From Acetivibrio alkalicellulosi (GTDB taxonomy: Bacteria; Bacillota; Clostridia; Acetivibrionales; Acetivibrionaceae): a DNA stretch of 64,000 bases. The notes below the pieces were generated by a model. That model worked only from the letters and a program-made list of their open reading frames with translations, did not search any database and was not told the origin of the DNA. This document shows positions 19,967 through 39,600 of this stretch, piece after piece. The stretch's first letter is position 1. Each line of letters begins with the position of its first letter. Both the position numbers and the translations under genes were made by a program. The stretch is from the NCBI GenBank assembly GCA_008125075.1, contig VLTH01000001.1, positions 696,555 through 760,554 of the forward strand. The letters run 5' to 3'.

Positions 19967-20062
19967 ATTTATTATGTAAGGGGCAAAATTAAATTTTAAA
20001 GTGTTCTTCATATTAAAGTAGATTAAAGTAGTTACGTTAAGTATATTTGAATACTTTTAGTG

Positions 20063-20103
20063 TTTATCGCACCATATATGATTGCCATATATGGTGCGAT
20101 AAA
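20063..20103. terminator. Long perfect palindrome between convergent genes
   Basis: TTTATCGCACCATATATG and its exact inverse are split by the 5-nt loop ATTGC: an 18-bp stem with no mismatch. It lies between the kinase gene (rightward) and the esterase gene (leftward) and could end both. There is no T tract, so it may instead be a cruciform or repeat element. Confidence 0.5.
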
Positions 20104-20150
20104 TAAAGAGGAAAAAGTATTACATTTACAATATATAATTAACTACGTAA

Positions 20151-21605
<1,455 letters not shown>

Positions 21606-21760
21606 CTAGTCCTCCCTTTTAAATTAATATATAAACATGTACATTAAATTTTTATATTCTATATTTTAATCCTATCCCTTTTGCAGGTAAAATTCTATGA
21701 TTTTTATTAAAAAGAAATTGACTTTTTTTCTATAGTTTATATTAAGAACTATTAATCATT

Positions 21761-21818
21761 TAAGCCATAGCCTTGCAATTTTTAAACTAAAATTTAAAAA
21801 ATACAAGGCTATGGCTTA
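21761..21818 (-). terminator. 15-bp inverted repeat after the substrate-binding protein gene
   Basis: TAAGCCATAGCCTTG and its exact inverse (21804-21818) flank a 28-base AT-rich loop. It lies 70 bases past the stop of the gene at 21888-23069 and would separate it from the esterase gene on the same strand. Confidence 0.55.
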
Positions 21819-21887
21819 AGAATTAACTCAATGTTTTTGCCATTTTTTCTGATTTTGTATGGATTAAGAGTAAGAGTAATCAATTAT

Positions 21888-23069: not shown

Positions 23070-23169
23070 TATTTATCACCTCATTAACTAAAAAAAAACT
23101 AATATCTTATGGATTTTAAAAACAAATAACTGGTCAGCTGGCGTTTCAAAAAATCTAATCTAATGATTA

Positions 23170-23910
23170 TCATATAATTTTTGAAAACAGAATTATTATA
23201 TTGTTATTTTTATCTTTTTTAAGAGAAAAACCTCTATAGCCATTTTCCAAAAGATGTTTTTGTTTTGTATAATCAGTGTTTAAAACTTCAACAACCTGAC
23301 TTTTATCAAGTAATTGTTCATATGAAAAATCTTTATATGCTATATACCGATTCCAGTTATTGTACATTTTAGTTAGTTTGACAATGTTAAGACCAAGAGA
23401 GGTTATTGTTTGAATGCTAGGAAAGTTATGGGGAGATACTGTTGTAAACAAATAGCGTTTTTGGTGTGTTATTTTTGATCTTTCAATAAGAATAGTAGCT
23501 AATTTTTGCTGCATTTTATGTCCACGTAAATCAGAATGAACAAGAGCCATTTCAAATTGCTCAACCTGACTTAAGGAATAGGCATCAAACCCAAGTTCTT
23601 TTGCCATGTTTATATTATCAGGCACATTCCAAAGTAGAGAACAGCAGGCTCTTAATTCACCAGATATAAATGTACCTAATGAATCTCCATTTCCATCAAG
23701 TATAAAGCTTAATTCGTCATTTGTTAAAGCAACAGCAAGTTCTGATAGTCCAAGATTTTTTAAAATAGAATCTTGTAAAATCATAATATCTGTTAAATCA
23801 TCAGTATTAAGTAGCCTAATAACATATGGTTTTTCAATTCCGTTAATTAATGTAATTGTACCTCTTTCTATAACGTCAGTACTAAAATCTGAATCAATTT
23901 TAATAAGCAT
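23170..23910 (-). CDS. GNAT-family N-acetyltransferase
   Basis: This 246-residue protein holds a GNAT domain in its middle: LLNTDDLTDIMILQDSIL at the start, the acetyl-CoA loop in ALVHSDLRGHKMQQKLATIL (Arg-Gly-His-x-x-Gln), and TTVSPHNFPSIQTITSLGLN, the family's late strand and helix. The first 25 residues and the last 50 are extra and not recognised. The acceptor is unknown. AAAGGAG lies 9 bases before the ATG. It sits between the sensor-MFS gene (90 bases upstream) and the binding protein gene (100 bases downstream) on one strand, so the three are probably one unit. Confidence 0.7.
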   Translation of the reverse strand: MLIKIDSDFSTDVIERGTITLINGIEKPYVIRLLNTDDLTDIMILQDSILKNLGLSELAVALTNDELSFILDGNGDSLGTFISGELRACCSLLWNVPDNINMAKELGFDAYSLSQVEQFEMALVHSDLRGHKMQQKLATILIERSKITHQKRYLFTTVSPHNFPSIQTITSLGLNIVKLTKMYNNWNRYIAYKDFSYEQLLDKSQVVEVLNTDYTKQKHLLENGYRGFSLKKDKNNNIIILFSKII

Positions 23911-24000
23911 ATATGCACTCCTTTTTTATAAATTTTAAAAATGTTATAATCCGAGGGAAGTGATTTTAGAAAAAATTAAGTTTTTAAAAAGTTGATGAAA

Positions 24001-26256
24001 TCAAGAGATGGAACTTTTGCGACTAGTGGAAGTGTTATAAAATGAAAATAAAACAAGTAGCACAAAAAAGAGTAAAACCATTATGCCTACACCTGTTCTA
24101 ATACCTAATGTCATAGCCAAACCAAAAATTATAGGGCCTGCTATTCTACTTATGTTTACTAATATGCTAAAGTAGGCTATTCGCTGGTTAATTTCCATGT
24201 CTTTTACTCCTTTAGAGTTTAAGAAATAAGTAGTTTTTAGAGAAACGCCAAAACTTTCAGCAATTCCAAGCATAGCAAGTGTAACAAATGCAGATGTAAT
24301 TGTTCCGAAAAAGACAAATAGTAATAAGGCAACTAATACAATAGCCATACTGTAAATTACTCCTGAAGTATTACTTGTTTTTTTAGTTAAAAATTTTGTT
24401 AATATTGGACCAAAGTATATTATTATAAGACCATTTAGTAAAAAGCCACGACTAATATCGCTTTGATACAAGCCCTGTGCTGATGCAAATAATGGAAACA
24501 AGTAATCTAAGAAGGCGCTGGTTATGAAAAAAGGTATAAATATTCCTATTAAGAAAAATAAGGATTTTTTGTCACTTAGAAAAATAGCTAGCTTTTTTAT
24601 AGAGTTTTCTCTAGTTTCATAAAGGGTTTTAATTTTAAATTCAGACATTGAATTGCATACAAAAAATAATGGCACAAAAGCAATAAGGGCAGATAAAACA
24701 AATACTATACTATAGCCTATTTGATCTGCTAACATCCCACCTACAACAGCACCGCAGTTTAATCCAGCTATAGCACCGGCTGAAAAAGCAGCTATTCCTA
24801 AACTGGTCTGAGGCATAGATGCTACTAGACTACGCATTGTCATTAGAAAAAAGCCAAGACCAAGTCCTGAAATTGCCCTTGAAATAATAAATAAAGAGGG
24901 ATTAAAACTATATGCGGACATAATGTTTCCCATTATTAGAAAAAAACCACCTGTATAAAATACTTTTTGCCAACCAATCCTATGTATAAGCATGCCTGAT
25001 ATAATAATAGCCAATACGCCACCAAGCATTTCAGAAGAAAGTGGCAGGCCTAATACAACATCCTTAGAGATTCCTAAGATAGGACTATATATTTGACGCA
25101 TTACAATAGGAATAAAGGTAAGTGGAATAAATGCAGAAAAATATACGAAAAAGGACAAAGTGCGCATTAAGTTGTGGCCATTTTCACGTTCAATGATAGT
25201 TTTATTAGCGGTTTTGATTTTGGTGCTATTTTTTTTAAGAAGAAGAATTATTAAATATATCATTTCTACCATAAATATTAATGCTACTATTAAAACAGTA
25301 ATCATATCAAATAAAATTCTATTCATTTGTTTTCTTATGTAATCATTTGAAATATGAACTATTACTGTGTCATTTTCTTTTATTATTCTTTGAATTTGAG
25401 GCAAACTATTTTGTATAGACTCAAGATAGTTTTCAAATCCCTCTATATTATCTAATGATAGAGATTTGGCATTTATATTTTCAATATTAGTTTGAATAAT
25501 ATTTTGAACAAACCTTTTACTTGTATGAGCCATATTGAGATAAGCATCTTTAAATAATGTATAATTAACGATACTGTAAGAAATTTGTGCAGTCCCTATT
25601 ATAACTAGAAGTATAGTCATAAGCTTCTTTTTGCTTATGTTTAAGTTATCATAAAGTAGTTTGGATTTGTGAAAAATAATAGTTAGAATTATCATTGATA
25701 ATATTATAATGGCTATTAATATATTTATAAGTTTTAGTGTAAGAGAACTATTCCAACTCATAAATAATTTTTCAGGAAAGATCATCATTAGAGTTGCTAT
25801 ATGTTTAGAGTCCTTCTTGATTCCTATAAAAATATACCCGTGTTCCTTATAAATTCTATAGCTTAATTGTTCAGTAATAGTGTTTTCCGTAAAAGAAGAT
25901 GTTTTATGAAGTTCTTCGGGAAGAAATTTATCATTTACAAAACCATTTATATCATACAGTATTTCACCTTCTAGTGAAACAACAAATACTTCTTTTAATT
26001 CAGGTATAATATTATGAAGTTTAATCAGGGTATCATTCATTCCATAGTAATTGTCAATAGGCTTACCATAGAAAAGAGCATATTCAATGTTTCGAACTAG
26101 CTCTTGACCTGCAACTGAATAGGTGCTTGTAAGTACACGATTGTAGTTATCAGTAAACGTCATGTAATTTATCAAGCCAGAAAATGTCATAATAACTAAA
26201 AGTAAAAATGCAACTAATACATAGACTTTAATTGAAGATAATATTTTTTTTATCAT
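24001..26256 (-). CDS. Fusion of extracytoplasmic sensor domains and an MFS transporter
   Basis: I place the start at ATG 26256, where AAGGTGG lies 11 bases upstream; an upstream ATG would add 16 residues. The protein is about 751 residues. It opens with a membrane helix (VYVLVAFLLLVIMTFSGLIN) and an extracytoplasmic domain of about 130 residues (NRVLTSTYSVAGQELVRNIE, VFVVSLEGEILYDINGFV), like a Cache-type sensor. Two helices and a second outer segment (MAHTSKRFVQNIIQTNIENI) follow. After one more helix the rest is a 12-helix MFS domain (MRQIYSPILGISKDVVLGLP, ISRAISGLGLGFFLMTMRSL). The sensor part may gate transport. Neighbours are a GNAT enzyme and a binding protein. Confidence 0.75.
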   Translation of the reverse strand: MIKKILSSIKVYVLVAFLLLVIMTFSGLINYMTFTDNYNRVLTSTYSVAGQELVRNIEYALFYGKPIDNYYGMNDTLIKLHNIIPELKEVFVVSLEGEILYDINGFVNDKFLPEELHKTSSFTENTITEQLSYRIYKEHGYIFIGIKKDSKHIATLMMIFPEKLFMSWNSSLTLKLINILIAIIILSMIILTIIFHKSKLLYDNLNISKKKLMTILLVIIGTAQISYSIVNYTLFKDAYLNMAHTSKRFVQNIIQTNIENINAKSLSLDNIEGFENYLESIQNSLPQIQRIIKENDTVIVHISNDYIRKQMNRILFDMITVLIVALIFMVEMIYLIILLLKKNSTKIKTANKTIIERENGHNLMRTLSFFVYFSAFIPLTFIPIVMRQIYSPILGISKDVVLGLPLSSEMLGGVLAIIISGMLIHRIGWQKVFYTGGFFLIMGNIMSAYSFNPSLFIISRAISGLGLGFFLMTMRSLVASMPQTSLGIAAFSAGAIAGLNCGAVVGGMLADQIGYSIVFVLSALIAFVPLFFVCNSMSEFKIKTLYETRENSIKKLAIFLSDKKSLFFLIGIFIPFFITSAFLDYLFPLFASAQGLYQSDISRGFLLNGLIIIYFGPILTKFLTKKTSNTSGVIYSMAIVLVALLLFVFFGTITSAFVTLAMLGIAESFGVSLKTTYFLNSKGVKDMEINQRIAYFSILVNISRIAGPIIFGLAMTLGIRTGVGIMVLLFFVLLVLFSFYNTSTSRKSSIS

Positions 26257-26562
26257 ATAAATAAATTCCACCTTAATTATTAAAAAGTAAGTATTAAATT
26301 TCAAGCTTTGAATAGTTTGTTATCACAAAGTTACAAAATAATTGTGAAAAATGCTATTTTTGATTTAATTAATTTTATAAAAAACAAATTTTTTACTTGG
26401 AAGTATTTCTATGAACATTAGAAGAAGCTTTATTCTAGAAATACTATTCTCACAATTAGGCTAAATGAAAGGGTCGTTAAATTTTAGAAAACTCCATTAT
26501 ATATATCGGATTATATTGTAATAAATTTAATATATTTAATGAAAAAAATGCTAAAGTCATTA

Positions 26563-26606
26563 CTAAGGAATGCCTTAGAAATAACTTCATATTCTCAACA
26601 TTCCTT
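26563..26606 (+). other. Nested inverted repeats upstream of leuB
   Basis: CTAAGG-AATG-CCTTAG forms a small hairpin, and AAGGAATG can instead pair with CATTCCTT at 26599-26606, giving two exclusive folds. The rest of 26305-26772 is AT-rich spacer between divergent genes. I see no T-box or other known riboswitch in it. Confidence 0.3.
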
Positions 26607-26772
26607 AAAAATTCTCTTGTCCTTATGTAAAGGAGATAAATCATTAAAAAATGTCATAGGTAAAAATAAATATCATGAAGAAAATACAATATAAAAGGTT
26701 TATTATTGTAATATACTTTTTATTTTAATCAATTAAAAGTAAATAAATATGTTATTATAGAGGTGTTTTAAA

Positions 26773-27873
26773 ATGGGTAAATATAAAATTGCAGTACTAC
26801 CAGGTGATGGTATAGGTCCAGATGTAACAGAACAGGCCGTTAAAGTTATACATACTTTAGCAGAAAAATATAATCATGAATTTGAAATGTTAGAAGGAGT
26901 GATAGGTGGATGTGCTATAGATAAACATGGTGATCCTTTGCCTACACAAACTGTTGATCTTTGTAAATCTTGTGATTCGGTACTATTAGGAGCGGTGGGA
27001 GGTCCTAAGTGGGACAATCTTCCTGGAGATAAAAGACCTGAGGCTGGTCTTTTGGGAATTCGCTCAAAGCTTGGTTTATATGCAAATCTTAGACCTGCAA
27101 TAATATACTCTGCTTTAAAAGATGCTTCTCCTTTAAAATCTGAGATAATAGAAGACGGGATTGACATTATGGTTGTTAGAGAACTAACAGGTGGTATGTA
27201 CTTTGGAGAAAGAGGAAGAGTACAAACTGAGAACATGGGAGAGGCTGCATTTGACACAGAGAAATACAGTGTATTAGAAGTTGAGAGAATTGTTAGGCTT
27301 GCATTTGAGACAGCATCTAAAAGGGGAAAGAAGCTAATGTCTGTAGATAAAGCAAATGTACTTGAAAGTTCAAGGCTTTGGAGAGAAATTGTAATACAAA
27401 TATCTAAAGACTATCCAGAAATTGAGCTTAGTCATATGTATGTTGATAATGCTGCTATGCAGCTTGTTAGGGATCCAAAACAGTTTGATGTTATAGTAAC
27501 AACTAATATTTTTGGCGATATACTATCAGATGAGGCTTCAATGATTACTGGGTCTATAGGCATGTTGCCGTCAGCAAGTTTAGGAGATGGAACATTTGGT
27601 CTTTATGAACCTATTCATGGTTCAGCGCCTGATATTGCGGGACAGAATAAAGCAAATCCAATAGCAACTATTCTTTCTGTAGCAATGATGATGAGATATT
27701 CATTTGGCTTAACTAAAGAGGCAGAGGAAATAGAAAATGCTGTTGTAAATGTACTGGAACAAGGTTATAGAACAGGTGATATTGCATCTTCTGGCACAAA
27801 AGTTATTGGAACTTGTGAAATGGGAAATCTAATTCAATCAGAAATAATGGATAAAAAACATAGAAACATATAA
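26773..27873 (+). CDS. leuB: 3-isopropylmalate dehydrogenase
   Basis: This 366-residue enzyme oxidises and decarboxylates 3-isopropylmalate with NAD in leucine synthesis. It has the family length and marks: [20 protein letters not shown] at the N-terminus, [26 protein letters not shown] with the substrate Args, [13 protein letters not shown], the Lys of [46 protein letters not shown] with the metal Asps, and [15 protein letters not shown] for NAD. AGAGGTG lies 7 bases before the ATG. No other leu or ilv gene is adjacent. The next operon starts 120 bases on with its own promoter, so shared function is not implied, though read-through is possible. Confidence 0.93.
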
Positions 27874-27938
27874 TAATATAATAACTTAATATTAGTGTGA
27901 AGTTGATTTAAAATATGCACCCCAAAGCTAAATGTGAC

Positions 27939-27967
27939 TTTACAAATAGAAATTATTACATTAAAAT
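27939..27967 (+). promoter_or_regulatory. Sigma-A-like promoter of the transketolase/RLP operon
   Basis: TTTACA and TAAAAT are 17 bases apart and end 25 bases before the first start codon. This would let the operon be expressed apart from leuB. Confidence 0.55.
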
Positions 27968-27992
27968 ATGGATATGAAATGAGGTGTGTAAA

Positions 27993-28913
27993 ATGAATTT
28001 ATATAATACAGATGAAGTATCGGTAGAACAAGTAAGAACGGTAGCTAATGGTATACGAAGAAGGGTTCTAGAACACACCATATTAAATAAAGGCGGATAT
28101 TTAAGTCAGGCTTGTTCTTCAGCGGAGATTTTTGCTGTTCTATACACGAAGATTTTAAAATTAAGCAAATTAAAAGCACCTATTGTACCTAAACCCTTTC
28201 CAGGAGTTCCAGGGCCTTTAAACAAAGACTATTTTACAGGGGAGAGCTATCATGGAGAGAAGGGGGCGGCTTATGACCGGTTCTATCTTTCACCATCTCA
28301 ATATTCTCTTGTGATGTATACGGCACTTATTGAAGTGGGAAGGATGTCAGAGAATGGACTTTCTGATTTTAATAAAGATGGAAGTTCATTGGAAATGATA
28401 GGAGCTGAGCATTCTCCAGGGATGGGTCTTATGGGTGGATCTCTTGGTCAGTGCATTAGTCAAGCAGCTGGTATTGCACTTTCTCGAAAATTAAAAGGTG
28501 AAGAGGGAAGAGTTTTTGTTTTTTTATCGGACGGAGAATGCCAGAGTGGACAATTTTGGGAAGCGGTTCAGTGTATGGCTTATCATAAGCTTGATAATAT
28601 GGTAATGTATGTTGATGTCAATGGATATCAATGTGATGGGAAAACCTCAACGGTCATGAATCTTGAACCCTTTGATAAACGATTAGAAGCATTTGGAGCA
28701 AGAGTGTTTCGTGTGCATGGGCATGATATAGAACGATTGGCAGCTTTGGGAAAACAAAAACCAGATGGTCGCCCATTATTTATTTTAGCAGACACATGTC
28801 CCTATAAAGGAATTGGTATATTAAAGACAAGAGAACCTAAATTTCACTATGTTAGGTTCACAAAAGATGAGGAAATCAAAGATTACCATCTGGCATTAGA
28901 GAAGATGAAATGA
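27993..28913 (+). CDS. Transketolase-like, N-terminal (ThDP-binding) subunit
   Basis: This 306-residue subunit carries the ThDP-binding half of a split transketolase. The ThDP/Mg motif is SDGECQSGQFWEA from Asp180, and ends with VDVNGYQ. Upstream are GYLSQACSSAEIFAVLY, where classical enzymes have GHLGG, and MIGAEHSPGMGLMGGSLGQC. The insertion KAPIVPKPFPGVPGPLNKDY (near residue 70) is not usual. I chose ATG 27993 because GAGGTG lies 6 bases upstream; a GTG three codons earlier overlaps that site. Its C-terminal partner is at 30170, with an mtnA-type gene between. ThDP enzymes of this type cleave ketose phosphates between C2 and C3. The changes around the active site hint at a non-standard substrate. 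Confidence 0.88.
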   Translation: MNLYNTDEVSVEQVRTVANGIRRRVLEHTILNKGGYLSQACSSAEIFAVLYTKILKLSKLKAPIVPKPFPGVPGPLNKDYFTGESYHGEKGAAYDRFYLSPSQYSLVMYTALIEVGRMSENGLSDFNKDGSSLEMIGAEHSPGMGLMGGSLGQCISQAAGIALSRKLKGEEGRVFVFLSDGECQSGQFWEAVQCMAYHKLDNMVMYVDVNGYQCDGKTSTVMNLEPFDKRLEAFGARVFRVHGHDIERLAALGKQKPDGRPLFILADTCPYKGIGILKTREPKFHYVRFTKDEEIKDYHLALEKMK

Positions 28914-28944
28914 TTATTAAAGTAGTAGGAAGTTATTTTTTGCA

Positions 28945-29048
28945 ATGAACAACGAGGATCTTTTAGAATATGTAAAAGAACATGAACTTTTTTAAAGTTT
29001 CGAGGATCAGAAAATCGACAATGGGAATTTGAAATATATTCGACATAG
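28945..29048 (+). pseudogene. Short frameshifted remnant
   Basis: An ATG at 28945 reads MNNEDLLEYVKEHELF and stops; a slip in the T6 run at 28988-28993 continues with KFRGSENRQWEFEIYST and stops at 29048. There is no ribosome site. It may be the remains of a small gene of the operon, or chance. The family is not known. Confidence 0.3.
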
Positions 29049-29076
29049 TGAAATCATTTGAAGGAGAGGGATAATA

Positions 29077-30168
29077 TTGAATGAACAAATTCAAAATCCA
29101 TTACACATTTCATCAGTTTATTTAGATGATGTGGAAAATGAACTTGTTATTTTAGATCAGACGCTTTTACCCAACGAAAAGAAATTCCTAAGACTTAAGG
29201 CTTTAGAGGAAATTGTTGAAGCCATTGTATTTCTTCGCGTGAGAGGAGCACCTGCTATTGGGATTGCAGCGGCCTTTGGGGTGTATGTATCTACTTTTTA
29301 TGATAAATCTCTACCTTTTAATAATTTGAAAGAGAAATTTTTTTACTGCAAAGAAAAGATTGCAGCATCAAGGCCTACGGCGGTAAATTTGTTTTGGGCA
29401 CTTGAGAGGATGAAAGAAAAATTTTTATCACATGAAAGCTTATGTGAGAACGAAATAAAAAAGGCACTAAAAGAGGAAGCAAACCTTATTAAGAAAGAGG
29501 ATGAAATAGTTTGCAGATCTATCGGTGAGTACGGACTATCTCTATTAAAGCCAGGCGGCTTTGTTATGACCCACTGCAACCCTGGTTCTATTGCGACGGC
29601 GAAATATGGAACGGCTTTAGCTCCACTTTATTTGGCAAAAGAAAAGGGGATTGACGTTGGCGTGTTTGCCTGTGAAACAAGACCCTTATTACAAGGTGCA
29701 AGATTGACTTCTTGGGAACTTAGTGAGGCAGGAATCGATGTAACTCTAATTTGCGACAACATGGCTTCTATTGTTATGAAAGAGGGAAAAATTCAGGCAG
29801 TATTGGTGGGGTGTGATCGTATTGCAAAAAACGGAGATACTGCAAATAAAATTGGAACCTCTGGTCTTGCAATTTTAGCTAAGCATTACAATATACCTTT
29901 TTATGTTTTTTCACCCATATCTACTATTGATTTTAGCATAGAAAGCGGAGAAGAGATTCAGATTGAAATTCGGAATCCAAAGGAAATAACAAGCCAATGG
30001 TATGAAAAACCAATGGCTCCCATTGAGGTGAAAGTATATAATCCAGCATTTGATGTGACGGATAACAGTCTTATTACAGCGATTATAACAGAAAATGGAA
30101 TTGCGTATCCTCCATTTAAAGAAAACTTAGAAAAAATAATTCAAGTAAATGGGAAAGTAGAGGTGTGA
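29077..30168 (+). CDS. mtnA: MtnA-type aldose-1-phosphate isomerase (S-methyl-5-thioribose-1-phosphate isomerase family)
   Basis: This 363-residue enzyme belongs to the eIF2B-like MtnA family that turns 5-methylthioribose 1-phosphate, or the 5-deoxyribose analogue, into the ribulose 1-phosphate form. Catalytic Cys167 lies in MTHCNPGSIAT and Asp247 in VGCDRIAKNGDTANKIGTSG. Both match the Cys160/Asp240 pair of the Bacillus enzyme with the same offset. RVRGAPAIGIAAAFGVY, ETRPLLQGARLTSWEL and the C-terminal NPAFDVTDNSLITAIITENG are also typical. Start is TTG behind GGAGAGGG; the nearby ATG is out of frame. It sits between the two transketolase halves, and its stop is one base from the next start. 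The exact substrate is not shown by sequence. Confidence 0.9.
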   Translation: MNEQIQNPLHISSVYLDDVENELVILDQTLLPNEKKFLRLKALEEIVEAIVFLRVRGAPAIGIAAAFGVYVSTFYDKSLPFNNLKEKFFYCKEKIAASRPTAVNLFWALERMKEKFLSHESLCENEIKKALKEEANLIKKEDEIVCRSIGEYGLSLLKPGGFVMTHCNPGSIATAKYGTALAPLYLAKEKGIDVGVFACETRPLLQGARLTSWELSEAGIDVTLICDNMASIVMKEGKIQAVLVGCDRIAKNGDTANKIGTSGLAILAKHYNIPFYVFSPISTIDFSIESGEEIQIEIRNPKEITSQWYEKPMAPIEVKVYNPAFDVTDNSLITAIITENGIAYPPFKENLEKIIQVNGKVEV

Positions 30169-30169
30169 T

Positions 30170-31177
30170 GTGGAAATTAATTCTAGAGTACATGCCAATA
30201 ATTTATTAAAATGGGCAAAAGATAAAAAAGAAGTGGTTGTACTATCGGCAGACCTTACTAGTTCAACAGAAATTGATGCTTTTCGGGACACTTACCCAGA
30301 TCGTTTTTTTTCCATGGGCATTGCCGAACAAAATATGTTAAGTTTTGCGGGAGGTATGGCAAGGGAGGGGTTTGTCCCTTTTGTCCACACCTTTGCGGTT
30401 TTTATATATCGTCGAGCATATGATCAAATAGCAATGTCAGTGGCATACCCAAATTTGCCTGTCAAGATGTTTGGATTTTTGCCTGGCATTATGACACCAG
30501 GAGGAGCTACCCATCAAGCCATTGAAGACATTTCTGTGATGCGCTCCCTTCCAAATATGACTATTTTAGAATGTGGTGATGCCACTGAAGTTGAATCAGT
30601 GTTAGATGTTGCGATGGAAGTGAATGGCCCTGTATATATAAGAATGTTAAGGGGCGAGATACCTAGGTTGTTTTCTCAAAATGAACCGATGAGACTAAAT
30701 CAAGTAAGGGTACTATCTAAAGGCAATGACATTACCATTATTTCATCTGGGATTTGTACAGAGGAAGCCATGAGAGCAACGACAGTATTAAAATCAAAAG
30801 GAGTATCAATTAACCACCTTCATATTTCTACGTTAAAACCATTTGATGACAATCATGTAATGGATGCCATTGCCAGTGCGAAATTTGGGGTGATTACCAT
30901 GGAGAATCATTCTGTTATTGGAGGACTTGGAACCATAATAAATGAGATAATTGCAAAGAGTGGCATGCAAAAAAAGGTTACCAACATTGGGATAAAAGAC
31001 ACCTTTATCCATGGTGCAAGTAAGCAATATCTCATGAAGGAGTATGGTCTTGATGCTATGGCACTAATTCATGAGGTGGAATCAATGATGGGCAGCAGCT
31101 ATGATATTAAAGAAAATGAATTGAAAGAGGCGTTTATTGCAGCTGTACATAGTGAAGCAAAGCCAGAAGCGCTATAA
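30170..31177 (+). CDS. Transketolase-like, C-terminal (pyrimidine-binding) subunit
   Basis: This 335-residue subunit is the partner of the gene at 27993. It has the PYR domain of ThDP enzymes with the activating Glu in GIAEQNMLSFAGGMAREG, then FVHTFAVFIYRRAYDQI, THQAIEDISVMRSLPNM and the transketolase C-terminal domain (DITIISSGICTEEAMRATTV, INHLHISTLKPFDD). The start is GTG, one base after the mtnA stop, and its ribosome site GAGGTG lies inside the end of mtnA, so the two are translationally coupled. ThDP binds between the halves, so both are needed. The gene leads straight into the RuBisCO-like protein gene 12 bases on. Confidence 0.9.
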   Translation: MEINSRVHANNLLKWAKDKKEVVVLSADLTSSTEIDAFRDTYPDRFFSMGIAEQNMLSFAGGMAREGFVPFVHTFAVFIYRRAYDQIAMSVAYPNLPVKMFGFLPGIMTPGGATHQAIEDISVMRSLPNMTILECGDATEVESVLDVAMEVNGPVYIRMLRGEIPRLFSQNEPMRLNQVRVLSKGNDITIISSGICTEEAMRATTVLKSKGVSINHLHISTLKPFDDNHVMDAIASAKFGVITMENHSVIGGLGTIINEIIAKSGMQKKVTNIGIKDTFIHGASKQYLMKEYGLDAMALIHEVESMMGSSYDIKENELKEAFIAAVHSEAKPEAL

Positions 31178-31189
31178 AAGGAGAATACT

Positions 31190-32335
31190 ATGTATTTTGA
31201 TCATATAAAAGAATACCCTTTAAGCGGGGAACGGTTTTATGTACAATATCATTTGACTGGGGACGAAAAAGAGGCTTATGAAAAGGCAAAAGACATTTGT
31301 ATAGAACAGACAGTTGAGTTTCCAGAAGATCTAATTCACAATGGTTTTATAAGAGATTCTATTTTTGGAAAAATTCAATCATTTGAAAAGATAAATGATA
31401 ATGCTTATAAAGTAATTATTAGTTATGCCATTGAAATCACTTCAAAAGAATTTACTCAGTTTTTAAATGTGTTATTTGGGAATATAAGCATTAAGCCTGG
31501 AATCCGATTAGAACACATTGGAATTTCGCCTACTTTGGAAAAATGGTTTCAAGGTCCTAAGTTTGGCATAGATGGCATAAGGGAGCGTCTTGATGTTAAA
31601 GACAAGCCTTTGTTTTTTACTGCTGTAAAGCCAATGGGACTAAGTTCTAAAGAATTGGCAAAACTGGCATATACTTTTTCATTAGGTGGTATTGATATCA
31701 TAAAGGATGACCATGGACTTAGCAACCAAGAATTTTGTCCATTTGAAGAAAGGGTAGAACTTTGTTGTAAAGCAGTCCAAAAATCAAATGACGAAACAGG
31801 AAGGAAATCCATTTTTGTACCTAATATCACGGCACCACATAGGGAAATGATAAAGAAAGCGAAATTGGCAAAAGATTTGGGTGCAGGAGGTCTTCTCATT
31901 TCTCCTGGCTTGTCGGGATTTGATGTGGTCAGGGATATTTCGATAGACCAAGGGATAGATTTACCAATTTTTTGTCATCCAGCCTTTTTGGGATCATATG
32001 TATTTGGTGAAAGCGGTATTGCACATCAGGTACTGTTTGGGGAAATTCCAAGACTTTCAGGGGCGGATGCAACCATTTTCCCAAACTTTGGTGGAAGATT
32101 TTCTTTTTCATTAGAGGAGTGTAGAAAGATTGCTACATCGGGAAAAGAGGAATATGGAAGTTTAAAACCTATTTTTCCATGCCCTGCTGGAGGAATGACA
32201 ATCAAAAACATACCTAGTTCTCTTGAGGTTTATGGAAAAGATGTGGCATTTTTGGTTGGGGGAGGAATTTTTAAATTGGGTCCTGATTTGCTTCAAAATA
32301 TAAAGGCATTTCGTAAAATATTAGATGGAAACTAA
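31190..32335 (+). CDS. RuBisCO-like protein (form IV)
   Basis: This 381-residue protein has the RuBisCO large-chain fold, N-terminal domain 1-140 and TIM barrel 150-381. The Mg site is GGIDIIKDDHGLSNQ: Lys172, Asp173-Asp174 and His175. RuBisCO has Lys-Asp-Asp-Glu, so the last ligand is changed. RuBisCO loop-6 lysine is absent, while phosphate-site glycines remain (PCPAGGMTIKNIP, FLVGGGIFKLG). It therefore should not fix CO2. Known form IV proteins enolise or isomerise methylthio-ketose phosphates in methionine salvage, or act on apionate-derived acids. AAAGGAG lies 7 bases before the ATG. The genes before it suggest a substrate made by MtnA and a product used by the split transketolase. Confidence 0.9.
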   Translation: MYFDHIKEYPLSGERFYVQYHLTGDEKEAYEKAKDICIEQTVEFPEDLIHNGFIRDSIFGKIQSFEKINDNAYKVIISYAIEITSKEFTQFLNVLFGNISIKPGIRLEHIGISPTLEKWFQGPKFGIDGIRERLDVKDKPLFFTAVKPMGLSSKELAKLAYTFSLGGIDIIKDDHGLSNQEFCPFEERVELCCKAVQKSNDETGRKSIFVPNITAPHREMIKKAKLAKDLGAGGLLISPGLSGFDVVRDISIDQGIDLPIFCHPAFLGSYVFGESGIAHQVLFGEIPRLSGADATIFPNFGGRFSFSLEECRKIATSGKEEYGSLKPIFPCPAGGMTIKNIPSSLEVYGKDVAFLVGGGIFKLGPDLLQNIKAFRKILDGN

Positions 32336-32406
32336 AATAATATAAGTTAGACATTCATGAGATAAAAACTCACCAACATAGAATGAAAAGTATAATGGGG
32401 TTGAAT

Positions 32407-33279
32407 ATGAATAAAAAAAATGATATGAAAATAGAAATTTTGCCGGATTTTATTAAGGAAGATGAGTTTATGATACTTTATCCATGTGATAAAATGACTA
32501 TTTTTACAACAAAAAAACCAAATCATCTACTTAAAGGCCAATACCAGCATCTTAATTATGAGTTTATCATAACAAAGTCTGTAGTTAAGGACTTTGTACT
32601 TGATGGAAAGAAGATAAGTATTGAGCCTGATATGGTTTTTGCTATTAATTCCATGCAGATGCATGGTACTGAGCATTTGTTATCAAACGTTTCATTTATA
32701 AGTATTCAGTTTGAAAAAGAATTCTTACATGACTTAGCCTTGGGTATATATGGAATTAAAGAGATAATGTTTTCAAATCAACCAATTCCATTATATAAAG
32801 AACTTACTGAACTTATTAATACTTACGTAAAAGAGTATGAGCAAAAGAAAGAAGGATATTTTTATATTTTAAATAATTTAAGCGTACATATTGCAGTTTC
32901 TATTTTTCGAAAAATTGGAATTATAAATCATACTAATGACTTAAAAAAAGAAAAAACTGAAAAGATTCAACAAATAATTGAGTATTTTAAAAAAAACTAT
33001 GAAAAAAACATCTCTCTTGAAAAAATATCAGACATATCTAATATGAGCAAATTTGATGTAATACGAAAATTTAAAGAAAGCACAGGAATGACACCACATG
33101 ACTATCTTTTAAATATTCGAATTATGAAGGCACTTGAATACTTAAATAATCCTACAAATAAAATAATCGATGTGGCTTTACTAAGTGGGTTTGAAAATCA
33201 CAGCCATTTTTCTAAAATCTTTAAAAAGAAAAGTGGCTTAACTCCCAGTGAATATCGCAAAAAAGTTTTATATCTTTAA
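32407..33279 (+). CDS. AraC-family transcriptional regulator
   Basis: This protein of about 290 residues has an N-terminal cupin-like sensing part (LNYEFIITKSVVKDFVLDGK, ISIEPDMVFAINSMQMHG) and two C-terminal helix-turn-helix units (ISLEKISDISNMSKFDVIRK, then IIDVALLSGFENHSHFSKIF, ending KKKSGLTPSEYRKK). Such proteins usually activate a nearby operon on binding a small ligand. I prefer ATG 32407 with GGGG 6 bases upstream; ATG 32383 is possible but has no ribosome site. It is last in the row after the RuBisCO-like gene, 70 bases on, and is the obvious candidate to regulate that operon. Confidence 0.85.
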   Translation: MNKKNDMKIEILPDFIKEDEFMILYPCDKMTIFTTKKPNHLLKGQYQHLNYEFIITKSVVKDFVLDGKKISIEPDMVFAINSMQMHGTEHLLSNVSFISIQFEKEFLHDLALGIYGIKEIMFSNQPIPLYKELTELINTYVKEYEQKKEGYFYILNNLSVHIAVSIFRKIGIINHTNDLKKEKTEKIQQIIEYFKKNYEKNISLEKISDISNMSKFDVIRKFKESTGMTPHDYLLNIRIMKALEYLNNPTNKIIDVALLSGFENHSHFSKIFKKKSGLTPSEYRKKVLYL

Positions 33280-33362
33280 AAGAATCTGAATTGTAAATTC
33301 TGAATCATTTTTATGGGACGTGTAATAAATGCGAAAATAATATGAGAGCTTCTTTACATAAG

Positions 33363-33426
33363 GTTACTATTTTTATTCAAAAAAGTTTGCTTTTTAGTGA
33401 ATTTTTAAAGATAGTAGCTTTTTTAT
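33363..33426 (+). terminator. Terminator after the AraC gene
   Basis: GTTACTAT pairs with ATAGTAGC (one G-T), a looser inner stem joins ATTC and GAAT, and TTTTTT follows. It lies 85 bases past the AraC stop and before the leader of the giant gene. Confidence 0.6.
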
Positions 33427-33577
33427 GTTTATTGAATCTGAAATAACTAACTTGATTGACATATGACAATATTAGAACAAAAACATGCAATTAAGTTATA
33501 GATATAAGATATATTTTTTGATATAATTTTTAAAAAGGTTTTAACACATCAAAAGTATATATTTGTTTTACTACTAG

Positions 33578-33601
33578 GACGTGCATATTTTTTTGTACGT
33601 C
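33578..33601 (+). promoter_or_regulatory. Leader hairpin of the giant surface protein gene
   Basis: GACGTGCA and TGTACGTC pair over 8 bases with one wobble across a T-rich loop, 39 bases before the start codon. A TATAAT box at 33524-33529 fits a promoter just upstream, so the hairpin would be near the 5' end of the mRNA. The ribosome site is AAGGGGCG. Confidence 0.4.
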
Positions 33602-33639
33602 TATTTTAAATTTAATAACTTTAAGGGGCGAAATATAAT

Positions 33640-36600
33640 ATGAAAAAAATTAGCAAGCACATTGCAATTGTTTTAATTGCAATATTAACAATTCAATTGT
33701 TAAACTTTTCTTTCAACCAAACAAATCAGAAAACACAGGTTTATGCTAATGAAGAGTATAATATCTCAGAAGATAATAATAATTTATTATTAGATTTCTT
33801 AGATGAAATCACAGGAGATTTTATACAAGAAGAGAGTAATGACATATCTTATCCTGAAATTCAAAATGAAACAGATGACAGCTTAAAAACATACTCAAAA
33901 GATGAGGAAGATATTTTTCCTGTTATAGAACTTTCAGATATAAAAGAGGATGAGGAATTAGAGTCTCATGATGAAATAGAAATACTCTTAAATTCAGATA
34001 GAGGAAAAGAAGAACTTATAAATCTCCAAGCTAATAATGAAGAAGATATAATTATATTAAATTCCGATAATAAAGAAAATCCTAATTCAGACCCATCGCC
34101 TATTATAATAAATTCTTTTGTTCAACTAGAAGAAGATACTGTTTACGGAGATGTTACAATAGAAGGCGGAAGTGTGTTTTTGAATGGATATACCCTAACT
34201 GTAGAAGGAAATCTTGTGCAAAACGGGGGAAGCCTAAATATAAATGATGGTCAACTAATAATAGATGGGAATTATATAAATAGTGGATCCTCCTATTTTG
34301 AAATGTCTAGTGATAATGACTACATGTTAGTTAAGGGTGATTTCTTTATGAATTCAAGTTATTACACTTATATGTATGCAGGAACTCTAGACATAAAAGG
34401 AGACTTTACTCAGACATGTATTTATGACTGGGGAGATAATTTTATGCCAGTTGGAAGTCATAAGACAGTATTTAGTGGAGACTCTTTGCAAACAATCAAC
34501 TTTCAAACCCCTAGATCTAAATTTAATATACTTGAAATTCAAAACCATTCAGATGAAGGAGTAGAGTTTAAGCAGCATATTAATGCTAATACTTTTATTG
34601 ATAACGGATGTGTAGTAAAATATCCTGGTTCAGAATATTTAGGATGGACTTTAGAAGGAAATATGCAGCATGATGGAAATTTGTATCTTGGTGCAGGTAC
34701 TTTAGACTTAAATGGCTACAACCTAACAGTTACAGGTGACTTTATACAATCTGGTGGAACAGCTTTTATAAATGGAGGAGAGCTTTTAATATCTGGTGAT
34801 TATAGGTTGCAGACAGAATTTGAAGATGCTAGAGGAAATAAAGATTACATACATAGTATGGGCGGTTTAAAAATGGTGAAAGAAAATGATTATGTAAAAA
34901 TAGATGGCAGCTTTATAAATCAAAGTCAAAAAGCACATGGAGGTTATTTAACAGATGGAATTCTAGAAGTATTAGGTGACTTCTTTGTATATGGTTCTTT
35001 TGGTCATGGCGAAATGGAAGGTTATGGTCATAGTGAAATGGAAGGCTTTGGAGAAGGTGAAGAAGAAGGTTATGGTGGCAATTTTCATGCATTAGGGAAT
35101 CATAAATTAATACTTAGTGGAGAAAATCATCAGAAAGTTATGTTTGAAGATTCCTCAAGCAACAGTTCTTGCATAAATATTTTAGAGATAACAAATAGCT
35201 CAACACAAGGGGTAGAATTTTTATCAAATGTTGTAGTTGCAGGAGAACTTAAAGATACAACTTCTAATATAATAGGTAGTATTGTCTTAGGGAAGAATGC
35301 AATAATTAGTTGGGATACATGGAAATACGATCTTAGCATGGAAGAGCGTACTTTAGATAAAGATTTAACAATAGAAGGCAGACTATCACTATATAGAGGA
35401 ACTTTAGATTTAAGTGGATATATACTTAGTGTAGGAGAGTTAAATCTTAGCTATAGTAATATTGACATAAATGGTGGTCAACTTGAAGTAGAAAATGATT
35501 TCTCACAATATGGCGGAGAAGTCAATGTAAACCAAGGTCAGCTTAAAATTTTAAATGATTTTAATCAGTACGGTGGAGAAGTGAATATAAACAAGGGTTA
35601 TCTTCAGGTGGGAAGAGATTATTTAATGAGTCATTATACACATCTTATTATGAATAATGAAGATGATCATGTTTTAATAGAAGGAGATTTTAATTGTAAT
35701 GTATTCTACAACCTATATAGTTATCTTATAGACGGCGTATTAGAAGTAAAAGGACATTTTAATCATAAAAAAGCTTTTAGCTGGACCGATGCGCCAGGTT
35801 TTAGTGCCTCAAAAAATCATAAGACAATACTAAGTGGTGACAGTCTTCAAATAGTAACTTTTGAGACAACAGGAGTATTTAACATACTAGAAATTAAAAA
35901 CTATTCAGAGGAAGGTGTTGAATTTAGGCAGCCTATAAATGCAAATATATTTATTGATAATGGATGTGTTATAATAGCTCCTGATAGTGAACCACCAACA
36001 ATTCCACAAAATTTAGAGTTAATATCAAAATTATATAACAGTATTTCTTTTTCATGGGAAGAATCTACCGACAATGTAGAGGTAGAAGGTTATATTGTGT
36101 ATAGAAATGGATGGCAAATTGCAAATGTAAGCCATAATGAATATACAGATATAGGACTTTATACTGACACCACATATTATTATAGTGTAAAAGCATATGA
36201 TGTTAATGGAAACATATCTGACTTTAGTAATGAATTGATTGTAACGACTGACCCTGATACAGAAGCTCCTACTGCACCTCAAAACTTAACTATAATTGGA
36301 AGAACAGAGAATTCAGTATACCTAACATGGACGCCATCGACGGATAATGTAGGAGTTGCAAGTTACAGAATATATAAAAACGGTATTGAAGTAGGATTTT
36401 CAAGAACAACATGGTATAGTGAACTAAATATTGAGCCAGGTACACATATCTATACAGTTAGAGCCTATGATGAATCAGGAAACTATTCTGAAGAAAGCAA
36501 CTTTGTTTTATATGACAACATGCCACCAACAATTCCACAAAATCTAACTGCAATTTCAGTTACACAATCGACAATATCATTAGTGTGGGAAGAGTCTACA

Positions 36601-39600
36601 GATAATGTAGAAGTAGCTGGATATAGACTCTTTCGTGATGGTAATCTCATTAGAATCTTAACTGAAACAGAGTTTACAGACGCAGGACTAATAATGGGTA
36701 GCACTTATACTTATACAGTACGTGCCTACGACCATGATGGAAATGTATCAGAAGAAAGTGAAAGTCTTGTTGTAACAACAGCTACTGATACTGAGCCACC
36801 AACAATTCCTGAGAATTTAAGATTAATAACAAAAACAAATTCATCAGTAACCATCACATGGGATGAATCAAGTGACAATATAAAAGTTGAAGGTTATGAA
36901 ATATTACTAGATGGCAAAACATCGGCAAGAACGACTGATAATACATATACAATAGATCGTTTAATCCAAAATAATACTTATACATTTACTGTAAAAGCAT
37001 TTGATGAAGCAGGAAACTATTCAGAAGAAAGCCAGCCTTTAGTAGTAGCTCTTATTATGCCAACTCCTCCGCAAAATTCAACAGGAGAGGCGAAAGAGGT
37101 AGAAATTGTTCTTTCTTGGGAGGAAATTTCTTATGATGAGTTTAGTCATTACAAAGTGATTAGACAGGTTAATGGTGAAGACCCAGAAGTGATTTTTGAT
37201 AACATAACAACTACAAGTATAAGTGATATTTCAGTTACACCTAATACAGAATACACATATTACATAGTTGCTGTAGACACATATGGAAACATGAGTGATT
37301 ATTCAGAGCCAATTATAATAATTCCTCTAAATGATGAAACCAATCCACAAATAGTAAGTATTAAGGGGTCTAAATTAGCACAAATATATAGAATAAATAC
37401 TGCTGTCACTGATAACATAGGAGTTGTAGAAATAGAATTCTACTATAGAAAAAATGAAGATCCATGGACTAATTTTGAAACTGTTTCTCTGACACCTCAA
37501 AGGGAAAATATAGTTTATACTTCATATGACTGGGATACAAAAGATATCGAAGACGGAACATATGAAATAAAAGCTATTGCCATTGACGGAGCTGGAAATG
37601 AAAGCGAAGAGAAAATAATATCTGTTATTGTTAAAAATACACCTCCACGGGCACCAGAAGAGTTAGTTGTAGTTATAGATCAGCTTAGAGTAGACGTTTC
37701 TTGGTCAATTGTTGAAGATCCATACTTTAATTTATACAGGATATATAGAAGCACTAACGGACATGATTTTCAATTGCTACGAAGTACTATTCTTAGAACT
37801 TATACTGACAGAAATGTTAGTGAAGATGGAAGCTACGTATACAAAGTTACAGCAGTGGATAGATTTGGACTAGAAGGAGAAGGAATATTTAGTGAAAATA
37901 TTGGTGCTTTACCAGACACAACACCACCAGTTATAAATGGAATTTCTCCTCAAGATAATAGTAACATTAATAAAGTTACACGTATTAGTGTATTTGCTAT
38001 AGACAATGTGAACCTAAAAGATACGGAGTTTTTATATTCTATAAGTGGAGAAGATGATACATGGGAAAGTATTGAAGTAACCCAAACTGGCACAATTCAG
38101 TGGAATACACAAAACTTAGAGGATGGTACATATTACATTAAAGCAATAGTAAGGGATACTTCATTAAATGAAAGTGAATTGATTGTTTCATATAATATAG
38201 ACAACACTCCTCCACAGGTTCCTGAGTTGTCAGGAAGCTCTATAGAGCTTGGTGTACTTTTAAACTTTGAAGGTTATACAGCTCCTAATGATTTTAAACA
38301 ATTCAACATATACAAAAGTACAAATGGTGGAGAAGAAGGAACATTTTTAATTATTGGAAACACTAAGCAATATCAATATAAAGATATGGGTGCAGATAAA
38401 GATATAGAAAACTATTATAGAGTAACTGCTGTTGACATTCTTGGAAATGAGAGCGAACCTTCTAATATAGTTGCTGTTATTCCTGGCAAGGATATAACAC
38501 CACCTGATATAAAAAGGTTAATTCCAGAAAATAATTCTTATATTAGAGATGTCTTTGAGATAAGGGCATATGCGCAGGATAATGTAGCAGTAACAATGTA
38601 TTCATTTGATATAAAAAGCATAGATGGAGAGTGGATTCCATTAGTTCAAATTGGAGATGCTGGTTTAAATGAAGTATACTTTAATTTTGATACTAAAGAA
38701 GAAGGAAACGATGGGCAAAGACTATTTCTAGATGGTAAGTATGAGATAAAAGTAACTGCCTTTGACCAAGAGGGAAATTATTCTGAAAAAATAAATACCT
38801 ATATAATAGCAAATAATCCACTTTCACCTCCAGAACATTTATATGTAAAAGCTGGTGAATGGCAGTTTACAGTTAGCTGGTCACCTGTAATGAGATGGGA
38901 TTTTAGTCATTATAGCCTTTATAGAAAAGAAGGTAGAGATGGGCAGTGGGAAAAGATTTTAAATAAGACCACTTCTAATGTATATATTGACAATATGAAA
39001 GATCCTCAAAAAGAATACTTTTATAGAGTGTCAGCAGTAAATGATTTGGGAATAGAAAGTGAAAAAACTCATGACTATTCTGAGGATCCTGAGGTTAATG
39101 AAAATATTGATATTAGATCACTTCATCAAAATTCTAATCCTTTAATTATAAGAACTACACCTACAGCTCTTTCAAGAACAAACAATAAACTTGATTTGTC
39201 GGCAATGGTAAGTGACTCTGTAGGCGTAAATATATTATATGAATATGCGTATCTAGGAGAATCCATCTCAAGCGATCTAACAGGTAATGAAACATGGCAC
39301 TTAATTTGGGAAGATACTTCACCAACGAAAGGTGAAAACATTGACCTTGAAACATTTTTAGACAACATTCCAGAAGGCATACAAATGCCAAATATAGGAT
39401 TTGGAGAAGATTACTATATTTCAGAATACTATTGGGATGTAGCACATCTTCCAGAAGGTGTTTATGCAGTTAGAACAGTTGCAATAAATAGAGGAAACAA
39501 TGAAACATCACTTGTGAGAAAATATATAATAGATAGAGAAGCACCAGACTCACCTTCAGAGCCTATAGCAGTTGACACTAAAACAGGAGGAGAAATTCAA

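Follow-up and report, generated by a model that had tools for sequence, protein, structure and literature searches.

The 64,000-nucleotide stretch of the Acetivibrio alkalicellulosi genome analysed here (assembly GCA_008125075.1, contig VLTH01000001.1, positions 696,555–760,554; hereafter the window) contains a plus-strand operon in which the two halves of a split transketolase, TktN and TktC, are encoded together with the isomerase MtnA, a RuBisCO-like protein (RLP) and an AraC-family regulator (Table 1). Judged from its sequence and from comparative genomics, this operon probably supplies the lower steps of an oxygen-independent route for the salvage of methylthioadenosine (MTA), a waste product of nearly all cells whose classical salvage uses O2 and whose anaerobic recycling is only partly known. 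The initial annotation had placed the five genes in one operon with gaps of 1 base between MtnA and TktC and 12 bases between TktC and the RLP, and both coordinates and gaps are confirmed base for base; a further 163 bases separate TktN from MtnA. It had overlooked leuB, which ends 110 bases ahead of the operon on the same strand, and a probable MtnK remnant in the 163-base gap. The promoter it proposed between leuB and TktN loses its force, as the hexamers exist but such sites are about as numerous in the stretch as chance predicts (34 against an expectation of 33.4).

Table 1. Features of the operon and its upstream flank, in window coordinates
Feature	Position	Strand	Basis or remark
TktN, N-terminal thiamine diphosphate (ThDP)/Mg-binding half of specialised split transketolase (P0001, 309 aa)	27984-28913	+	GTG start, or in-frame ATG at 27993
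Spacer with probable decayed MtnK N-terminus (MNNEDLLEYVKEHELF*...IDNGNLKYI, single frame)	28914-29076	+	sequence matches, profile against shuffles
MtnA, 5-methylthioribose-1-phosphate isomerase (P0002, 363 aa)	29077-30168	+	TTG start; TIGR00512
TktC, pyrimidine-binding and C-terminal half of split transketolase (P0003, 335 aa)	30170-31177	+	NF004559, 6yaj
RLP, 3qfw type, predicted 5-methylthioribulose-1-phosphate 1,3-isomerase (P0004, 381 aa)	31190-32335	+	sequence, fold, residues
AraC-family regulator (P0005)	32383-33279	+	family profiles
Promoter-like hexamers TTTACA-17-TAAAAT	27939-27967	+	string present; not evidence of function
leuB	26773-27873	+	TIGR00169, 528 bits (cut-off 353.2)

Protein families of the operon

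Both transketolase halves and the RLP give good superfamily matches (TktN to NF004559 at 1.6e-45 and to Pfam PF00456, TktC to NF004559 at 1.5e-66, and the RLP above the Pfam cut-off for the RuBisCO large chain), while falling far below the equivalog cut-offs listed, in the case of the RLP below every NCBIfam one. These scores offer a first sign of specialised subfamilies, with the qualification that those of the transketolase halves are low partly because the models describe one-chain enzymes. The best PDB sequence match of TktN is 6yak, the N chain of the Carboxydothermus split transketolase (7.7e-34), also the structure closest to its AlphaFold model (pLDDT 81.4; 2.2e-18), and TktC best matches 6yaj of the same Carboxydothermus enzyme (1.6e-63). 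1-Deoxyxylulose 5-phosphate (DXP) synthase was rejected as an identity for either half on the scores of TIGR00204 (200.4 bits for the C half and 21.7 for the N half, against 465.95), a one-chain model to which each half is a partial match.

The specialised halves found here and in relatives were aligned by residue with Escherichia coli TktA, DXP synthase (DXS) and five canonical split copies, taken from the host genome (G000), from genome G002 and from three cluster-bearing relatives. They diverge at three positions of TktA, H26, H100 and D469, which we take to be ligands of substrate hydroxyls, H100 presumably binding that on C1. Specifically, Tyr occupies the H26 position in 54 of 54 TktN sequences, the H100 position holds Met in 48 of these and Leu in the other 6, and Gly replaces D469 in 58 of 58 TktC sequences, these counts being made without TktN below 450 bits (L048, L085 and fragments) or TktC below 500 bits (L037, L041). 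The ThDP/Mg residues D155 and N185 are kept in 54 of 54 and E411 in 58 of 58, and H473 and R520 in all specialised TktC aligned. The five canonical copies retain H100 and D469, their matched stretch stopping short of H26, and the Carboxydothermus enzyme (6yak) has a His opposite Y39 of TktN, the H26-position Tyr; the H461 column is unsure, as canonical split copies have T there. A joint loss of H26, H100 and D469 with the ThDP machinery intact fits a donor that lacks a C1 hydroxyl. Specialised TktC forms one clade with 100% SH-aLRT support (in a quick tree that carried a warning on long outgroup branches) and ends in a conserved tail, VHSxAKAEAL, and TktN has an extra segment relative to TktA, DXS and 6yak.

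The RLP is the sole RuBisCO-family match in the 5.3-Mb genome. Its best phmmer match, 3qfw of Rhodopseudomonas palustris (2.1e-68), is also the top Foldseek match of its AlphaFold model (mean pLDDT 89.7; 4.7e-40, TMt 0.91). Passages of PMC5893883 describe two RLPs in R. palustris, of which RLP1 acts on 5-methylthioribulose 1-phosphate and yields both 1-(methylthio)xylulose 5-phosphate and 1-(methylthio)ribulose 5-phosphate; since 2qyg is rlp2 by its structure title, 3qfw would by exclusion be RLP1. Ten of twelve RLP positions checked, including K147, K172, D174, H175, H263 and R303, are invariant in 3qfw, in all seven relatives partnered by a cupin (discussed below) and in all 71 transketolase-type rows. 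The other two, 336 (M in most rows) and 358 (G in most rows), show variation within the kinds, and no alignment column distinguishes cupin-partnered from transketolase-type RLPs at the limits used. The outgroup rows L096 and L097 have E at the H175 position. We take the RuBisCO equivalents to be Lys175, Lys201 and Asp203, with His replacing Glu204, the residues themselves being identified in the alignment. By sequence, fold and active-site residues the protein is predicted to be a DeepYkr-type RLP with isomerase activity. Three other identities were rejected on score: MtnW enolase (PRK09549, 225 bits against 409; TIGR03332, 165.1 against 513.6), form III RuBisCO (rubisco_III, 154.4 against 497.45) and OiaX, the RLP of an apiose pathway (69.7 against 700).

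MtnA is the only MtnA match in the host genome, exceeds its cut-off (TIGR00512, 401.8 bits against 279) and carries Cys167 and Asp247, presumably catalytic and invariant across eight rows. An MTA phosphorylase (297.8 bits against 274.85; G000:C1:781899-782621, a 268-aa open frame) is encoded about 21 kb past the window end, and a search of the genome returned no match to MtnK or MtnN. The earlier suggestion that MtnK is not needed thus agrees with the host genome; it does not extend to those other clusters that include MtnK, and probably did not always apply here. The spacer between TktN and MtnA sits where relatives have MtnK before MtnA, against the open reading frames (ORFs) of the fetched loci it matches three MtnK N-termini best (E values 7.8e-5, 0.006 and 0.016), and the MtnK profile gives it 7.6 bits, a score exceeded by only one of 2000 dinucleotide shuffles. 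The spacer is thus a probable MtnK remnant, left in an operon that formerly had its kinase and now would depend on the phosphorylase.

Recurrence of the gene set and its relation to the cupin

A profile scan over one genome per species yielded 525 confirmed RLP loci, of which the best-scoring 80 were scored for their neighbours, a choice that makes them lean to near relatives of the query alignment. In 54 of the 80, TktC is encoded on the strand of the RLP and no more than 4 kb 5' of it, and both transketolase halves lie near the RLP in 50, three of them fused; the neighbourhood search suggested by the initial annotation thus finds a pairing that is not unique to this genome. The 54 loci, mostly from metagenome-assembled genomes (MAGs), span ten phylum labels at NCBI (Bacillota 15, Chloroflexota 11, Pseudomonadota 8, Spirochaetota 5, Nitrospirota 4, Planctomycetota 3, Deinococcota 2, and one each in Elusimicrobiota, FCPU426 and Myxococcota, with 3 unassigned), a recurrence that places the gene set beyond chance. 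Within the order, specialised TktN (548–576 bits, the next best match scoring 166) occurs in exactly three of 58 genomes, those with an RLP match above 600 bits, and is absent from four others with weaker RuBisCO-family matches (189.9, 189.3, 63.6 and 21.4 bits). The four other genomes of the genus, one of them just 55% complete, have neither RLP nor specialised TktN, so that the gene set appears patchy. In genomes G002 and G003 tktN-tktC-RLP stand without mtnA. This separation would suit a chance neighbourhood of unrelated metabolic genes, an explanation whose probability is negligible in view of the recurrence and of the co-occurrence in the order; moreover, mtnA in these two genomes adjoins the MTA phosphorylase gene mtnP elsewhere.

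MtnK and MtnA share the locus in nine of the 80, all nine with TktC, and the order mtnK-mtnA-tktN-tktC-RLP is found in Clostridium ljungdahlii, C. drakei and Anaerosolibacter, behind sugar ABC genes in the first two. The same order recurs in five of six plasmid loci (chosen from 20 listed of 365 records), together with sugar ABC genes, a bifunctional aldolase/short-chain dehydrogenase (SDR) and a sugar-binding regulator. In the sixth, from Ponticoccus, the genes are a BMP-type ABC system, purine-nucleoside phosphorylase, amidohydrolase, mtnA, molybdopterin oxidoreductase, tktN, tktC and RLP. Among the neighbourhoods scored, MtnA lies between the transketolase halves in the present operon only.

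On Ponticoccus alexandrii plasmid p-SCP4 the molybdopterin-dependent oxidoreductase (L008:9782-12058) stands between mtnA and tktN in a cluster with nucleoside genes, and could oxidise an aldehyde product or a purine base. The Rhizobiaceae clusters (L005, L006, L009, L010) are plasmid-borne, with plasmid replication or integrase genes in the sequence retrieved around them, and are perhaps mobile catabolic cassettes. In two Chloroflexi-type clusters (L066:3635-4756 and L072:2201-3316) a second MtnA-like protein has RGAGLIGA instead of RGAPAIGI, and both loci encode an LsrF-like aldolase and sugar ABC components, with an SDR in L066 (family names by eye); these genes perhaps belong to a separate ketose-1-phosphate pathway.

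In two RLP loci without a transketolase, those of Syntrophomonas (L021) and Pelotomaculum (L029), a small cupin is found instead, with 3jzv (Rru_A2000 of Rhodospirillum rubrum) as its best match (8.9e-42). Rru_A2000 is described in a portion of PMC4958253 as the 1-methylthio-xylulose 5-phosphate (MTXu-5P) sulfurylase acting after the RLP in the MTA-isoprenoid shunt, and PMC10663253 likewise regards RLP and cupin as the known shunt. The distribution of the two partners was compared over 53 RLP genomes, namely G000, G002, G003 and those of 50 of the 80 loci, made up of the full 26 that lack a linked TktC and 24 of the 54 that have one. MtnA is present in 52 of these, MTA phosphorylase over its cut-off in 32, MtnK in 16 and MtnN over its cut-off in 8, C. 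ljungdahlii and C. drakei being included in both of the latter sets. Specialised TktN occurs in 38 (37 above 300 bits and one 67-residue fragment at a contig end), none of which has a cupin of at least 60 bits, as against 11 of the 15 genomes without it (Fisher p 1.8e-8); counting only cupins of at least 130 bits, the figures are 0 of 38 and 7 of 15 (p 4e-5). No cupin match reaches 40 bits in the 38 genomes, two of which score 35.8 and 21.1 bits and were left uncounted, and none at all appears in G000, G002 and G003.

The two partners are interspersed on the RLP tree, which was built by a quick method, has three long end branches and L096-L098 as outgroup, and includes an R. palustris row labelled as cupin-partnered from the literature. 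L023 was dropped from it as its RLP frame is broken, and L001-L004, L011 or L013, L093-L095 (same-stretch copies), L009 and L010 were left out of both tree and residue counts. On starred branches alone the partner changes at least 4 times with the strong-cupin label and 5 times with the transketolase label; the best tree has 7 changes for strong-cupin and transketolase rows alone and 11 once weak cupins are included. Within the Chromatiaceae, Thiobaca (cupin) pairs with Thiocystis (transketolase) with a support of 82. Mutual exclusion, together with the same RLP positions in the company of either partner, suggests that a non-orthologous replacement is the most likely relation of the two, the transketolase performing the next step on the intermediate used by the cupin, 1-methylthio-xylulose 5-phosphate.

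A link to methionine is provided by S-adenosylmethionine (SAM) riboswitches (RF00162) that stand immediately upstream of the complete operon in C. ljungdahlii (L019:1601-1710, the first gene starting at 1983) and C. drakei (L018:1470-1580), whose genomes contain 16 and 14 SAM boxes, respectively. In a third locus, L028, a SAM box lies just 3' of the RLP.

The proposed route and its alternatives

In the proposed route, MTA phosphorylase would make 5-methylthioribose 1-phosphate from MTA, a compound that some relatives would obtain through MTA nucleosidase and MtnK, or from imported methylthioribose and MtnK. MtnA would convert it to 5-methylthioribulose 1-phosphate, and the RLP would shift its carbonyl, yielding 1-methylthio-xylulose (or -ribulose) 5-phosphate as the R. 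rubrum enzyme does. TktN/TktC would then act in the cupin's place, very likely on 1-methylthio-xylulose 5-phosphate, and a cut between C2 and C3, which may be expected with good confidence, would release glyceraldehyde 3-phosphate. The methylthio group, positioned beta to the ThDP carbanion on the two-carbon fragment, would depart as methanethiol, an outcome we somewhat favour over the release of methylthioacetaldehyde, and the acetyl-ThDP left behind would end as acetyl phosphate or acetate. Analogous departures are those of hydroxide in phosphoketolase and of sulfite in sulfoacetaldehyde acetyltransferase (Xsc). Methanethiol could return to methionine via O-acetylhomoserine sulfhydrylase, as in R. 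rubrum.

The core idea of the initial annotation, a sequence from MtnA through the RLP to a transketolase-type cleavage, is supported as a comparative-genomic hypothesis by the recurrence of the gene set, the exclusion of the cupin, the shared RLP positions, the co-occurrence within the order, the three lost ligands and the two SAM riboswitches. Whether this extends to a new ThDP 'thioketolase', cutting the C2-C3 and C-S bonds in one active site to yield glyceraldehyde 3-phosphate, methanethiol and acetyl phosphate, and thereby completing a widespread, energy-conserving anaerobic methionine salvage under ten phylum labels, repeatedly exchanged with the cupin, appears evenly poised.

As an aldolase alone splits the MtnA product, the RLP step is sensible only if sulfur must adjoin the cleaved carbonyl, and this placement favours expulsion of methanethiol over release of methylthioacetaldehyde, although this is an argument and not a measurement. 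An unlikely variant keeps the same pathway with a ThDP enzyme that only protonates the fragment, producing glyceraldehyde 3-phosphate and 2-(methylthio)acetaldehyde, which would then be reduced or oxidised as in the dihydroxyacetone phosphate (DHAP) shunt. Such a reaction would be ordinary transketolase-type chemistry without an acceptor, and 2-(methylthio)ethanol is indeed made from this aldehyde through Ald2 in R. palustris, according to passages of PMC5893883. Ald2, however, yields the aldehyde straight from 5-methylthioribulose 1-phosphate, so that the RLP step would bring no gain; moving sulfur next to C2 would matter only if sulfur leaves, and the mutually exclusive partner, the cupin, is a methanethiol-releasing enzyme.

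The lost ligands bear upon a second alternative, in which the pathway would serve 5'-deoxyadenosine or 5-deoxyribose, the RLP would form 1-deoxyxylulose 5-phosphate and the ThDP enzyme would yield glyceraldehyde 3-phosphate and acetaldehyde, or transfer the two-carbon unit. Loss of H100, presumably the C1-hydroxyl ligand, also fits a 1-deoxy substrate, and the ABC transporters of the plasmid loci suggest an imported sugar. In addition, portions of PMC8102628 describe the MtnP of Synechococcus elongatus as acting on 5'-deoxyadenosine, and a passage of PMC6302742 proposes that the isomerase MJ0454 makes 5-deoxyribulose 1-phosphate. The mutual exclusion with a cupin whose described substrate is the methylthio compound and SAM riboswitch control in two Clostridia make this alternative rather improbable, as does the consideration that an aldolase would do the same job without an RLP. 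The methylthio substrate is thus better supported than the 5-deoxy one, and both may be used.

A third alternative is that the genes serve another sugar, such as the branched pentose D-apiose, with MtnA a bystander or a re-purposed isomerase. Split transketolases occur in apiose pathways, and the Rhizobiaceae and Mariluticola clusters have the bifunctional aldolase/SDR and the sugar-binding regulator nearby. RLPs are likewise known from such pathways, according to a portion of PMC6302742. This alternative, already raised by the initial annotation, is very unlikely given the low OiaX score, a MtnA above its cut-off, MtnK annotated in five plasmid loci, the exclusion of the cupin and the SAM riboswitches of two relatives; no apiose gene was recognised by eye in 24 neighbourhoods, a weak test, other apiose genes not having been searched for by profile.

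Several observations must be weighed against the methylthioadenosine route and its thioketolase step. No enzyme assay, ligand-bound structure or mutant of the specialised transketolases was found, and sequence does not tell methanethiol expulsion from simple protonation. MtnP-like genes lie near the RLP in two of the 80 loci, L044 (240.6 bits) and L064 (236.6 bits), both below the MTA phosphorylase cut-off of 274.85. At least four loci (L013, L035, L058, L073) also hold a class II aldolase gene, so that in these the MtnA product may be put to another use. With regard to the cupin, its limits of 60 and 130 bits were chosen after the scores were known, most of the 53 genomes are MAGs whose completeness is not given, and four of them (G061, G066, G070, G079) have neither partner. 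The Fisher values moreover overstate independence, because only 4 independent pairs exist on starred branches with strong cupins, all 4 as predicted but too small a number for a significant sign test (p 0.125). Finally, a SAM riboswitch stands 5' of the operon in two of 29 transketolase-type loci, some of which end at contig ends, and in two Clostridium species that are near relatives; none was found in the window, where an RNA-family search of positions 20000-40000 returned no family.

In L035, L058 and L073 the class II aldolase-like genes are close to MtnK or MtnA, alongside tktN-tktC-RLP. Aldolase and RLP/transketolase routes may be encoded next to each other in these loci, perhaps for 5-deoxyribose and methylthioribose, respectively.

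Flanking elements and comparison with known systems

Downstream of the RLP, an intergenic repeat, TAGACATTCATGAG(N)CTCAC (window 32348-32373), occurs in 29 genome copies of one exact pattern, against none for the reversed control. A copy at 18741, outside the exact pattern, is by eye an imperfect palindrome ending in ATGAATGTCTA, resembling a miniature inverted-repeat transposable element (MITE) or a repetitive extragenic palindrome (REP). One copy extends into the start of the AraC ORF, whose first 16 bases are identical to those in another copy of this genome-wide repeat; as the ORF start reads as repeat, translation of the regulator probably begins at the in-frame ATG at 32407 or further downstream. 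Directly after the operon, a single open frame of 6894 aa (33640-54324, plus strand) has a signal-peptide-like beginning and many repeated segments that by eye look like fibronectin, PKD or CARDB domains, as in a giant surface or secreted protein.

The gene set is present in acetogens (C. ljungdahlii, C. drakei), Desulfosporosinus, purple sulfur bacteria, Chloroflexota, Spirochaetota, Planctomycetota and rhizobial plasmids. If the proposal is correct, it would provide a role for a sizeable set of form IV RuBisCO-like proteins without an assigned function, and for a distinct transketolase clade; relatives of the RLP treated in PMC7325909, from Spirochaetes, Planctomycetes, Moorella and others, are described there as having unknown functions. 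It would also add a C-S-cleaving ThDP reaction, one that could release volatile methanethiol in anoxic habitats, as well as a carbon-yielding fate for methylthioribose, in gas-fermenting strains included, and a further oxygen-free recovery of sulfur and carbon from MTA that acts after an RLP. The statement of the initial annotation that no described pathway has this set stands as far as the open-licence papers searched go: no open-licence paper was found on an RLP with a transketolase in the salvage of MTA or 5'-deoxyadenosine, and a subscription paper may exist. On this proposal, methionine salvage would gain a new branch, and the ThDP enzyme in it would belong to a type undescribed in the open-licence literature searched.

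Among known systems, the MTA-isoprenoid shunt of R. rubrum and R. palustris, composed of MtnP, MtnA, a DeepYkr RLP and the cupin MTXu-5P methylsulfurylase, shares with the proposed route its first three steps, the RLP type, the catalytic positions checked, independence from oxygen and presumably methanethiol as the sulfur product. It differs in having the cupin where the present operon has a split ThDP enzyme, and in forming 1-deoxyxylulose 5-phosphate where a triose phosphate and a two-carbon unit are predicted here. The DHAP shunt (MtnP, or MtnN and MtnK, followed by MtnA and Ald2/DrdA) has the upper steps in common and likewise salvages MTA or 5'-deoxyadenosine without oxygen, but proceeds by aldol cleavage of the 1-phosphate ketose, has neither RLP nor ThDP enzyme and leaves the sulfur on methylthioacetaldehyde.

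With respect to the ThDP enzyme itself, the canonical split transketolase of Carboxydothermus (6yaj/6yak) and DXP synthase share the fold, the split architecture, the ThDP/Mg residues and the catalytic Glu, whereas specialised TktC forms a separate clade, and H26, H100 and D469 are replaced in all aligned members. Phosphoketolase and Xsc would resemble it in the proposed beta-elimination from a ThDP-bound two-carbon fragment to acetyl-ThDP, but are of other ThDP families and have other leaving groups (water and sulfite), and neither is known to use a methylthio substrate. A transketolase acting on a sulfur-bearing sugar is found in the sulfo-TK pathway (SqwGH, the 6-deoxy-6-sulfofructose transketolase), for which passages of PMC9594981 describe a version in Clostridia and mention no RLP or MtnA; there, the sulfonate remains with the acceptor part of the sugar and leaves as sulfoacetaldehyde.

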